In this document: piece by piece, positions 203 through 30,526 of the stretch | Layout of the letters: every line of letters begins with the position of its first letter | Numbering within the stretch: position 1 is the first letter of the stretch | Origin: Spirochaetaceae bacterium | Lineage (GTDB): Bacteria; Spirochaetota; Spirochaetia; Treponematales; Breznakiellaceae | Length of the DNA stretch: 37,700 nt | Reading direction: 5' to 3' | Assembly (NCBI GenBank): GCA_031257255.1 | Contig: JAIROZ010000078.1 | Coordinates: 1-37,700 of the forward strand | Notes under the pieces: generated by a model | Databases searched by the model: none | The model's input: the letters and a program-made list of their open reading frames with translations, nothing else | Told to the model about the DNA's origin: nothing | Position numbers and translations under genes: made by a program

Positions 203-224
203 AAAATACGGAAGGAGATTTCAA

Positions 225-1686
225 ATGACAACATTATTCAGAATGACGGGGGGGGGGGGGGGGAGTACCACATAAACACCTCACAGCAGCGGCGCTAACC
301 CTAGCGCTGGTATGCGCAGCTTGTAAAGGCGGCATTACCGAGATAATTAGCGGACCCAAGCCGCCTATGCTAACGGAACTTTATTTTACTTTAGCGGACG
401 AGAGCGGCGGCAATGCGGACGAGAAGACGGAGCGGGTTTTGACGGTGCTGGACGCGATAACGCTGGACGAGGCGACCAAAGACGGCGCGGTTATCGTTGA
501 TATAGAAGACTTTAAGATTATTTTGCCGGCGACCCCCTACAGCAAAGTACAGATACACGCAAGCGCCGATAACGCGAAGATTGAGTTTAGCCACAATGGT
601 ATGGAAGTTTCCGGCGATATTACCGATGAGAAAAATGTTAAGGATATATTTACGCCGGCGGCGGGCGGGCACACAAAAATACTGGTAACGGGGAATAATT
701 GGAATCCGCGCCAGTATACAATTACCTACATAGACAAAGACACGGCAGGCGGCGCGGAAGAAAACAAAGAAGGCGCTATGCTAACAAGCGTAACCGTTAC
801 GGCGGTTCAGCCGGAGCAAGTAAAGACGCTTAGATTGGCAGGCGGAGTATTTGAGAACGGGACAAAGAGCGATGTGGTAAACCTGAGCGCCGGGACAACA
901 TCGGTAACGGTTACAGCCGAGCCGGAGGCGGGCGGTAGTGTTACATACAGCGTTCAAAATCCAATTACTTTGACGGCGGGCGGGGTAACGGCGGTGTATA
1001 TATACGCGGCAAAGGACGGCAAGAGCCGGTCGACATACACGCTATTGCTTTCGGCTCCGGCGCAAGGACAGACCACGGTGCCTTCTATTATTGTTGTTCC
1101 GTTCAAGACGATGTACAAAATCGACGAAAGCATTAACCCCACCGTAGACCTTGCTGTATATCTGCGGAAGGAAGACGGAGTAACAGAGAAAGTAAGCGGC
1201 GGGTTTGGCGGCATACCGGCGGCGGTATTTACGGCTGAGGAGACACGGGAAATAACTGTAACCTACACTTACGCGCAGACAAGTTTGAGCGCGAAGTATA
1301 CGGTATGGGTAAGCGATACGCCTGCAATTCCGATAATTCCAAGCATCAAAATCATCGGCTATGACGCGAGCAGTATTGTAGAATTGGAATTGGAATATGT
1401 AGACGGCGGGGTGCTGACTCTTGCGCGGGAGTCTGTGCAAAGCGGAACATATACATATTCGGCAGGGAGGGGGACTCTTGCCGGGGGCGTTATCCGCAGC
1501 GTCAAAATTGGAACAAACCCGGAGATACTTTTGGGGCGTAAAGACAGCGATGGGGCTATTACATTAAAACTGGATGGCGCCGGCGCGTTGGAATTCCGGG
1601 ACGCGGATAGCGCGGGGTATGTTCCGGTGGGGACTTATTGGGCGCGGCAGATTATCAGAACAGGCGGGAAAACTGGACGCGGATAG
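225..1686 (+). CDS. GLUG lipoprotein, 5' part (out of frame at poly-G)
   Basis: A good ribosome binding site (AAGGAG, 211-216) precedes ATG 225. That start reads MTTLFRMT, then glycines from the G tract (248-263), and stops at 273. The long frame, open from 247 to 1686, encodes a lipoprotein signal just after the tract: hydrophobic LTAAALTLALVCAAC with a lipobox cysteine, then KGG. Fifteen Gs instead of sixteen would join the start to this frame. The mature part holds a cadherin-like beta-sandwich domain (about 780-1060) and a bacterial Ig-like stretch (about 1075-1310). Near 1630 the frame breaks again, and the remaining GLUG part lies in another frame. Without the switch, the first ATG in the long frame is 367, which would give a 439-aa product lacking a signal. 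Probably a surface or periplasmic adhesin-like lipoprotein; the substrate is unknown. Confidence 0.7.
248..263 (+). promoter_or_regulatory. G16 homopolymer, likely phase-variation switch
   Basis: Sixteen consecutive Gs lie seven codons into the ATG 225 frame, directly before the lipoprotein signal peptide. As written, translation from 225 ends after 16 codons at the TAA at 273. Loss of one G, or gain of two, opens the full lipoprotein. Slipped-strand mispairing at poly-G is an established phase-variation mechanism, including in Treponema pallidum. A homopolymer sequencing error is the main alternative. Confidence 0.65.
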
Positions 1687-2504
1687 GCGGATTTTACGGC
1701 GAATTTGACGGCGGCGGGCATACGATAGACAACCTGTATATAAGCGGTCTTATCAACCAAGGATTGTTTGGGACTGTTGATGCCACCGGGATGCTAAAAA
1801 ATATCCGTATCGCAAGCGGCTCGGTATCGGGATACAATAATACCGGCGGCGTGGCAGGGGCGAACTACGGCACCATTAACGCCTGCTACAACAACGCTGA
1901 TATATCGGGCAGCATTAATCGTACCGGTGGCGTGGCGGGTTGGAACTTCGGAACCATTAACGCCTGCTACAATACCGGCGCGGTGTCTGGTTCTGGCACG
2001 GTTGGCGGCGTGGTAGGGAACAGCAACGGTACTATTACTGCCTGTTACAATACCGGCACAGTAGATGGCTTTAGTGGTGTCGGCGGCGTGGTGGGGGGTG
2101 CCACACTCTGCGCCATTACCGCCTGTTACAATACCGGCGCGGTGTCCGGCATCGGCTTTGTAGGCGGCGTGGCAGGAGAGGCAAGCGACGGATCCATTAC
2201 CGCCTGTTACAATGCAGGCGCGGTGTCCGGCTCTACCGAGACCGGCGGCGTGATGGGATGTAACGAATACGGCACCATTAACGCCTGTTACTGGGATAAT
2301 TCCGTTACTCCGCATCCCGCCAATGGCATAGGCGAACCTGCCGATGATACAGACGCGGCGCCATTCAACGGCGCGGCGGCTTTCCCTCCCGTAACCGCTA
2401 CAAATGCCGAGTGGGGCGCAGGCGATGGTTCCGGCAGCGGCAAGTACTGGAAAGCCGGTACTACCGGCGGGGGGCAGTTGCCGAAGTTGTGGTTTGAACA
2501 ATAA
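1638..2504 (+). CDS. GLUG lipoprotein, 3' part with GLUG repeats
   Basis: This is the C-terminal half of the same surface protein, in a different frame from the 5' part. It begins with the typical lead-in NWTRIGGFYGEFDGGGHTI, followed by six GLUG-type repeats (TGGVAG.N.GTINACYN.G.VSG, residues 69-218) and ends in an aromatic tail, LPKLWFEQ. GLUG motifs occur in bacterial surface and secreted proteins, including the IgA1 protease region. No ribosome binding site precedes TTG 1638, so it is not an independent gene. Adding one base at the G4 run 1629-1632 would fuse VPVG directly to this frame. It is therefore a frameshifted continuation, from mutation, programmed shift or sequencing error. Confidence 0.65.
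   Translation: MGAADYQNRRENWTRIGGFYGEFDGGGHTIDNLYISGLINQGLFGTVDATGMLKNIRIASGSVSGYNNTGGVAGANYGTINACYNNADISGSINRTGGVAGWNFGTINACYNTGAVSGSGTVGGVVGNSNGTITACYNTGTVDGFSGVGGVVGGATLCAITACYNTGAVSGIGFVGGVAGEASDGSITACYNAGAVSGSTETGGVMGCNEYGTINACYWDNSVTPHPANGIGEPADDTDAAPFNGAAAFPPVTATNAEWGAGDGSGSGKYWKAGTTGGGQLPKLWFEQ
1842..2295 (+). repeat. Six tandem GLUG-encoding repeats
   Basis: The units of about 72-81 bp share runs such as GCCTG(C/T)TACAATACCGGCGCGG. They encode six consecutive GLUG motifs, and their DNA similarity makes recombination-driven copy-number change plausible. Confidence 0.75.
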
Positions 2505-27903: not shown

Positions 27904-29241
27904 GTGAAAGAAGAAATCGAAGAATTAGAAGAACTGGAAAAAGTTGAAGATAAGCCGGCAGAGCGTCCTGTTGCGCCGCAAACTGCCAGACCGGTTCCGC
28001 TTCAAGCGCCGGTAAAGGCTGCCCGTCCTGCTGCTCAGGCTAAGCAGACGGCGCAATTTGCGGCACCAAACGCCCGGCAAACAACGCCGCGCCCGGCTGT
28101 TTCTCAGCAAAACGCAAAGGCTCAGACAGTTCCGCGGCAAGGCATAAAAACTCAGGCAGCCGTTCAACAAGGCGCAAAAACTCAGGCAGCCGTTCAACAA
28201 GACGCAAAATCTCCGGCTGCCTCTCAACAAAACGCAAAGGCTCAGGCGGTGGACGCCGCTCTTGTTCGCGCCGGCATACACACGGGCATATACGAAAACG
28301 GACTATTCTCGGTTTTGATGATAAATTCAGAATTACAGATTGTTTACGCAAATAAACAGGCGCGGAATTTTTTTTCCAGTTATATCAAACTTGGGCGGAA
28401 CGCATTTTTTGACCTGTTTGGCAAGTACTTTACCTTTGACGATGTACGCGGCATACGCGCCGCCGTCCTTAAAGGAGAAGGCGGTTTTACATGGCGCGGC
28501 AAAGCGGAAATAAAGTCGCGCAACCATCCCAAAGTTTTTACGCGGGTGTATGTCTTTCCCGCAAACATTACTCCGCAGGCAAAGCCTTCGTACTGGATTG
28601 TGATGTTTGACGATGTAACTGCCGAAAACCGCACCCTCCTTCGTTCCGTATTCGTAAGCCTGCTGGAAGCCTCAAAATTAAAAGACAACGACACAGGTAA
28701 GCATATAGTCCGCGTAAATTATTATTCCGAAGCGCTTGCGCGGCGCTTGTTCAACAGACCGGGCTACCCGGAAGTGGATGCCGAATTCATTGACAACATA
28801 GGTTTTCTTGCGGCGATGCACGATGTCGGCAAAATCGGTACACCGGATGATGTACTCAACAAGCAAGGTCCGCTTTCGGACTGGGAATGGAGCGTAATGA
28901 AGGAACACACAAAGAACGGCGCGTTCATTCTTTCGACATATCCCAATCCTATGGCAAAGGAGATAGCGCAATCGCACCACGAAAAATGGAACGGCACGGG
29001 CTACCCGTTCGGCATAGACGGAAAGCACATACCGCTTGCAGCCCGCATCGTATCCATTGCCGATGTATACGATGCCCTGCGGATGAAGCGTAGTTACAAG
29101 CCTTCGTTTACACACGAAGCGTCAATGGAAAAAATGATAGAAAACAAAGGCACACAATTTGACCCGGAATTGATAAATATATTTATAGAGATGGCGGGCG
29201 AGTTTAACGAAATATACGAAGCCAATAAGGATACCGAATGA
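27904..29241 (+). CDS. PAS + HD-GYP domain phosphodiesterase
   Basis: Predicted to degrade cyclic di-GMP, the motility/biofilm second messenger. N-terminal: acidic start, then Pro/Ala/Gln-rich low-complexity to about residue 117, including a 10-residue tandem repeat. A PAS-like domain spans about 130-240. The HD-GYP domain has HDVGKIG (306-312), HHEKWNGTGYPFG (358-370) and ARIVSIADVYDAL. Length 445 aa. There is no signal or membrane segment. GTG start with AAGG upstream. The stop overlaps the dapB start (ATGA). The PAS domain may sense a cytoplasmic ligand. Confidence 0.9.
   Translation: MKEEIEELEELEKVEDKPAERPVAPQTARPVPLQAPVKAARPAAQAKQTAQFAAPNARQTTPRPAVSQQNAKAQTVPRQGIKTQAAVQQGAKTQAAVQQDAKSPAASQQNAKAQAVDAALVRAGIHTGIYENGLFSVLMINSELQIVYANKQARNFFSSYIKLGRNAFFDLFGKYFTFDDVRGIRAAVLKGEGGFTWRGKAEIKSRNHPKVFTRVYVFPANITPQAKPSYWIVMFDDVTAENRTLLRSVFVSLLEASKLKDNDTGKHIVRVNYYSEALARRLFNRPGYPEVDAEFIDNIGFLAAMHDVGKIGTPDDVLNKQGPLSDWEWSVMKEHTKNGAFILSTYPNPMAKEIAQSHHEKWNGTGYPFGIDGKHIPLAARIVSIADVYDALRMKRSYKPSFTHEASMEKMIENKGTQFDPELINIFIEMAGEFNEIYEANKDTE
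28111..28251 (+). repeat. 30-bp tandem repeat in HD-GYP gene
   Basis: About 4.7 units of 30 bp encode the 10-residue repeat QQGAKTQAAV; two units (28141-28170 and 28171-28200) are nearly identical. Because the unit is in frame, copy number could vary without breaking the gene. Confidence 0.85.
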
Positions 29242-30026: not shown

Positions 30027-30058
30027 GGCAGCGGGGGGTGTTTTCACTATTCAAATCA

Positions 30059-30067
30059 TGCTATCAT
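30059..30067 (+). promoter_or_regulatory. Extended -10 of coiled-coil gene (leaderless)
   Basis: TGC plus TATCAT (30062-30067) ends 6 nt before ATG 30074. No Shine-Dalgarno sequence. Confidence 0.45.
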
Positions 30068-30073
30068 AGCGGT

Positions 30074-30526
30074 ATGGGAATGAGAAATTTTATTTACACG
30101 ATAGTTCAGCAAGCCGTCCGCGAAGTCATCACTAAAGAGGTGAATGTCCGCATAGACAATCTCGAAAACAAGATGAACGAGCGCTTTATCGACCTTGAAA
30201 AAAGGCTTGAAGCGCGGTTCCAAAAGATAGACGAGCGTTTTGAAAGAATGGAGGCGCGGTTCCAAAAGATAGACGAGCGTTTTGAAAGAATGGAAGCGAA
30301 GTTTGACGAGCGCTTTGTCGACCTTGAAAAAAGGCTCGAAGCGCGGTTCCAAAAGATAGACGAACGCTTTGAAAAATTGGAAGCGAAGTTTGATGAGCGC
30401 TTTGAAAGAATGGAGGCGCGGTTTGACAGCGTTGAACAGAATCTGGCAAACATCAAAGGCAACCTCGAAGGCGAAGCCCGCTTTTTCCACATTGCCGATT
30501 ATCTGAAAAAACACGAAGGCTATTAA
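30074..30526 (+). CDS. Coiled-coil repeat protein
   Basis: A 150-aa protein, almost entirely charged coiled coil after a short helical head (MGMRNFIYTIVQQAVREVITK). Units ARFQKIDERFERME, KFDERF and LEKRLEARF repeat, mixing 14- and 11-residue spacings, i.e. heptads and hendecads. It ends GEARFFHIADYLKKHEGY. The style recalls DUF1640-type coiled-coil proteins; no enzymatic motif is present. ATG 30074 is preferred over upstream in-frame starts because of the adjacent promoter. Function unknown; possibly a structural or scaffolding protein. glyQS follows with its own ribosome binding site. Confidence 0.75.
   Translation: MGMRNFIYTIVQQAVREVITKEVNVRIDNLENKMNERFIDLEKRLEARFQKIDERFERMEARFQKIDERFERMEAKFDERFVDLEKRLEARFQKIDERFEKLEAKFDERFERMEARFDSVEQNLANIKGNLEGEARFFHIADYLKKHEGY
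30179..30415 (+). repeat. In-frame 42- and 33-bp repeats in coiled-coil gene
   Basis: A 42-bp unit (30212-30253) is repeated almost exactly at 30254-30295 and, diverged, at 30341-30382, separated by 33-45 bp sub-units. The coiled coil grew by tandem duplication. Confidence 0.8.

Follow-up and report, generated by a model that had tools for sequence, protein, structure and literature searches.

A G16 tract in the predicted signal peptide of a spirochaete lipoprotein gene as a candidate phase switch, and the G-tracts of its relatives

Is the run of 16 G residues at the start of a predicted lipoprotein gene an on/off switch for a surface protein, or a mark of a gene that has broken down? The gene lies in the window, i.e., the whole stretch of 37,700 nucleotides that was analyzed, which is the entire contig C51 of a 2.17-Mb draft MAG (210 contigs, 71% complete). 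Its glycyl-tRNA synthetase is 78 to 85% identical to records named Treponema sp., Spirochaetaceae bacterium, or Spirochaetia bacterium, many of which we take to be of termite origin, judging by their isolate codes and partly by the nature of those survey projects; this comparison places termite-gut treponemes as the nearest relatives of the organism. We consider it reasonably probable that G16 is a slippage-prone simple-sequence contingency tract in the part of a lipoprotein gene that encodes the signal-peptide n-region. Slippage during replication would alter the length of the tract by one or two Gs. Lengths that are multiples of three (15 and 18) would be read into the signal peptide and the body, giving the ON state, and other lengths would meet a stop in the first 20 codons or so, or not far beyond, giving the OFF state; the length in the window is an OFF length. 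On this proposal, the length would change at a high rate in living cells and expression would follow the frame. G16 belongs to a large set of G-tracts in the genome and the family, many of them at the 5' ends of exported proteins.

Anatomy of the G16 locus

Inspection of the sequence puts the tract at positions 248 to 263, at most 8 codons after the ATG at 225, with a length of 16 that is taken from the draft assembly, i.e., one assembly of one strain. It is a long, pure tract in a coding frame and far above chance, as is characteristic of SSR contingency loci; zero G16 runs occurred in 100 dinucleotide-preserving shuffles of the window. The features of the locus are as follows.

212 to 217, forward strand: Shine-Dalgarno sequence AAGGAG, 7 nt 5' of the ATG; GGAAGGAG is conserved in the C203 paralogue
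225 to 227, forward strand: ATG start codon, which aligns with the ATG of the C203 paralogue
225 to 275, forward strand: predicted OFF-state frame as assembled, 16 residues, with the stop TAA at 273 to 275
248 to 263, forward strand: G16 tract, inside the predicted signal-peptide n-region
265 to 324, forward strand: remainder of the signal peptide as read with 15 Gs, VPHKHLTAAALTLALVCAAC; the codon for the lipobox Cys is at 322 to 324, and a further Cys at -3 makes the lipobox irregular
265 to 1686, forward strand: predicted ON-frame body, P0001, which ends with TAG at 1684 to 1686
1631 to 1638, forward strand: GGACTTAT, the junction of a 67- to 76-bp deletion relative to two paralogues; the frame is shifted
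1638 to 2504, forward strand: C-terminal half with GLUG repeats, in a frame that differs from that of the front half

The start codon and ribosome binding site are as good as the initial annotation had described them, and its reading of the phase is also borne out. The ATG frame as assembled encodes MTTLFRMTGGGGGSTT and then stops at the TAA, whereas with 15 Gs it would read MTTLFRMTGGGGGVPHKHLTAAALTLALVCAACKGG... and merge into the frame of 265 to 1686; a change of one unit toggles the long frame between a stop at 273 and an opening to 1684. The long frame opens with VPHKHLTAAALTLALVCAACKGG, is without a start codon of its own ahead of the lipobox, and has a stop (TGA, 244 to 246) just 5' of the tract. 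The placement of the tract immediately before the lipobox of a surface lipoprotein, as first described, stands in part: in the G15 frame a hydrophobic core and a Cys follow the tract, but VCAAC is an irregular lipobox, whose Cys at -3 takes it outside a strict PROSITE-type pattern. Matches of the P0001 body to beta-sandwich/Ig-like domains are weak and under the cut-off, and a scan of named genomes with P0001 returned zero relatives.

Two other repeats were observed in the window. A coding internal repeat at 30038 to 30526, RFERMEARFQKIDE, is coiled-coil-like, and an AAVQQGAKTQ coding repeat at 27904 to 29241 lies ahead of an apparent HD-GYP-type domain.

Damage in the window copy, and comparison with its paralogues

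The closest readable paralogue, on contig C203, is 77 to 78% identical and reads through 743 residues, GLUG motifs included, in a single open frame. A second paralogue, on C47, has its 5' end cut off, and the comparison at the tract site rests on C203. At that site, C203 reads GGC GGT GGC, i.e., mixed glycine codons without a tract, and its lipobox, AITAC, is regular and passes the strict pattern; the window copy is 6 nt shorter at the lipobox, which results in VCAAC. At about 1631, the window copy lacks 67 nt relative to C47 and 76 nt relative to C203, so that the frame is shifted, and the predicted ON product ends at 1684 with its GLUG half lost. With this second frame break, at about 1631 to 1638, a G15 tract leaves the full-length product of about 740 amino acids unrestored. 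No orthologue of the window gene bearing a tract was found among the genomes compared.

These features bring in the chief rival explanation, that the window copy is a pseudogene in a redundant paralogue and that its tract switches nothing useful here, even if the class does so elsewhere. The off-frame tract, the frameshifting deletion, and the damaged lipobox all speak for it, as does an omega of 0.71 (0.35 to 2.67; P(omega >= 1), 0.25) on the window branch, compared with 0.21 to 0.23 on the other two branches; the window-branch value does not show constraint on the front half. The interval is wide, however, and the value for the back-half branch (0.41) leaves a hint of constraint; moreover, the front frame of 473 codons is still free of stops, the start, ribosome binding site, and front half are intact, and the front domains could be displayed alone. 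We judge the pseudogene explanation to be somewhat unlikely and regard the window gene as a plausible but damaged member of the class. Because the second frameshift leaves even the ON state with the front part only (about 485 residues), this may be a repertoire member in partial decay.

G-tracts in this genome and its relatives

G runs of at least 8 number 74 in the genome, and their lengths are bimodal, with 25 of 8 to 10, none of 11, and 49 of at least 12. A general homopolymer effect was rejected, as the number of A/T runs of at least 12 is 0, compared with 49 such G/C runs. For 13 of the 26 tracts that lie 150 nt or more from either end of a stretch read, a long open frame follows on the G strand, versus 4.6 expected from random positions; only 2 of the 26 are inside a long frame. 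Both sides are readable for 16 coding tracts, 7 in frame and 9 out of frame, where random phase would place about 5 in frame. The tract is out of frame in 9 of the 13 exported proteins, and the tracts of the three cytoplasmic or inner-membrane cases (TetR-like, YidC-like, and a methyltransferase) are all in frame. Two of these have features of their own: a C15 (proline) at L070:2238-2252 (G000 C155) joins, in frame, two TetR-like halves of one frame, and an in-frame G16 at L077:616-631 (G000 C172) lies within the gene for the YidC-like membrane insertase, which is odd for a presumably essential protein.

The layout of the window locus recurs. At least four other predicted lipoproteins of the genome have their tract after the start and ahead of the hydrophobic core: those on C37 (G16) and C166 (G15) are in frame, that on C189 (G13) is out of frame, and for C73 (G18) the upstream sequence is unreadable. 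On C83, C118, C143, C208, and partial copies, the tract follows the lipobox Cys by a few residues (CSSNVNDN-Gn) and is always out of frame. On C139 and C161, an in-frame tract lies within a cleavable signal peptide or directly behind it, and that of C111 is ahead of Big_2 domains, out of frame, where its glycines would fall at a VGG turn.

Across 59 genomes, G runs of at least 12 often number 10 to 142 in other members of the family and 0 to 7 in other families of the order. A search of 200 family genomes for SD-ATG-(3-33)-G12, counted only on the strand that registers each tract once and with a few duplicates or one repeated leader included, gave about 71 matches; the pattern in reverse gave about 25. 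Lipoproteins with a tract before the hydrophobic core were found in G076, G107, G110, G108, and G003, and G076 has two paralogues, one with G16 in frame and one with G15 out of frame. In the genus g54, the tract is kept pure at the same site in G107 C68 (G14), G103 C169 (G14), G110 C196 (G15), and G110 C247 (G14), and the last three are 46 to 51% identical in protein sequence to the first. G108 C35 (G14) is more distant (33%) with the same layout, and the homologue on G106 C103 is without a tract. Three of the tract-bearing g54 lipoproteins are out of frame and two are in frame. Survival of a pure tract at this level of identity argues for selection or for a strong local growth bias. Conservation of the tract among relatives, on which the initial annotation had made its proposal depend, was not observed for the window gene, where C203 is the readable comparison, and is present in the g54 lipoprotein family.

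A leader-plus-tract arrangement was also observed. At least six loci of G222 (C4, C53, C81, C88, C93, and C104; L343 to L348) share a leader, CGTAAGTCGTTACAGGATAAGGAGTTACAT, roughly 30 nt long and identical but for one or two differences; a G17 or G18 that takes in the start codon follows the leader directly, and the contigs end there or soon after. The arrangement on G116 C107 (L278) is similar. The G222 loci resemble a multigene family whose members share one switchable start.

A growth bias of this kind could act alone: a mutational bias of the clade would lengthen G runs, which would be kept wherever loss of frame is tolerated, as in intergenic DNA or surface genes that can be dispensed with, and switching itself would be under no selection. 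The excess is indeed of G and not of A runs. G002, of the same genus, has 142 G runs of at least 12, the most of the 59 genomes, and G-runs can evidently grow without coding selection, because most of these are intergenic, which counts against a switch. G002, though 94% complete, is also the sole genome without a MutL match among the 14 tested; MutL was matched in this genome and most others tested, which speaks against neutral growth, and loss of mismatch repair was rejected as the cause. The 5'-end bias of the tracts in this genome, the excess of the SD-ATG-tract order over its reverse, and the retention of an unbroken tract at one position in homologues of about 50% identity likewise make neutral growth rather unlikely.

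The tract length could instead be in error, 15 being the true value, always ON and encoding a fixed poly-glycine, and 16 an error of draft assembly or stutter. Short reads cope poorly with long G runs, the genome is a fragmentary draft, and many contigs end at tracts; on C33, C61, C73, and C151 a long run at the contig end is followed by GC-rich junk, probably an artefact of sequencing through the tract. Yet the tract itself is real and recurs in homologous contexts, and the contrast in phase between the exported proteins and the three cytoplasmic or inner-membrane cases, small as the numbers are, is not expected of pure error; we hold this explanation to be improbable. There is also little likelihood of a leaky switch, in which slippage of RNA polymerase or the ribosome on G16, of a kind known in general on long homopolymers such as this one, would give some ON product from an OFF length and the tract would tune the level, in view of the stop at 273 close downstream.

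Assembly bears on one further observation. C83 (L055) and C118 (L061) have 106 identical nt followed by G13 or G14; taken together with the end of G000 C178 (L080), the shared 106 nt and G13 continue into either of two distinct lipoprotein bodies, one with G13 and one with G14. A reading of the flanks as recent duplicates was doubted. The three may represent paralogues with a common 5' end or an assembly-graph fork at the tract, the latter because 106 + 13 = 119 matches the k-mer in the contig names of related MAGs (k119).

The proposed contingency tract is best considered at two levels. A poly-G contingency-locus class is well supported, among other things by g54 homologues that keep pure G14 to G15 tracts in both phases at 46 to 51% identity; its members would function as switches. 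The lipoprotein switch first proposed for G16 holds up as a class, with several unrelated lipoproteins of this genome and of relatives carrying a tract ahead of their hydrophobic core, but less well at the window locus itself, given the second frameshift, the irregular lipobox, the tract-free C203 paralogue, and a length read from a draft assembly. More tentatively, though as a serious possibility, termite-gut treponemes may have a family-wide phasome, with tens to more than 100 long G-tracts in each genome. Unrelated lipoproteins would repeatedly have gained a switch between the start codon and the hydrophobic core, and entire surface repertoires would vary at random in a host that has no antibodies.

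Possible selection and comparison with known systems

The switching was first described as antigenic, which is doubtful with termite-gut treponemes as the nearest named genomes. Insects are not known to have antibodies, and selection by phage, protist, or niche is therefore likelier than antibody escape. Most work on phase variation concerns pathogens of vertebrates; if symbionts of the insect gut do carry a large set of G-tract switches, this would point to pressures other than antibodies, such as phages, attachment to gut protists, and niche change. Many surface genes in these draft genomes would then look broken or vanish, the latter because contigs end at tracts. The idea can be checked with read data of the kind already deposited. 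A search of the open-access literature turned up nothing on phase variation in termite-gut treponemes; SSR phase variation is already known as a kind, and its scale in insect-gut treponemes appears to be undescribed in the literature searched.

In Neisseria, Campylobacter, and Helicobacter, poly-G/C contingency loci in the coding frame are reported to be numerous in each genome (PMC5084427, PMC8355987, PMC2823697). The present loci resemble them in having a G/C homopolymer near the 5' end of a surface gene, where unit changes shift the frame; unlike them, they are from an uncultured termite-gut spirochaete, with tracts 13 to 18 long, and we infer their switching from sequence. The pilus genes of bifidobacteria are reported to switch ON and OFF by replication slippage, and the switching was measured (PMC9187656). 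These are likewise genes of gut commensals, but they belong to another phylum and encode pili. The precedent in Treponema pallidum is looser than first suggested: poly-G is likewise tied to putative outer-membrane proteins in another treponeme, but its switches (tprE/G/J/L and tp0126) act via promoter spacing or strength (PMC7864442). A promoter switch of that type was rejected for G16, with no promoter-like site detected that spans the tract. The T. pallidum tract is in the promoter and alters transcription, whereas that of the window is 3' of the ribosome binding site and ATG, in the reading frame inside the predicted signal peptide.
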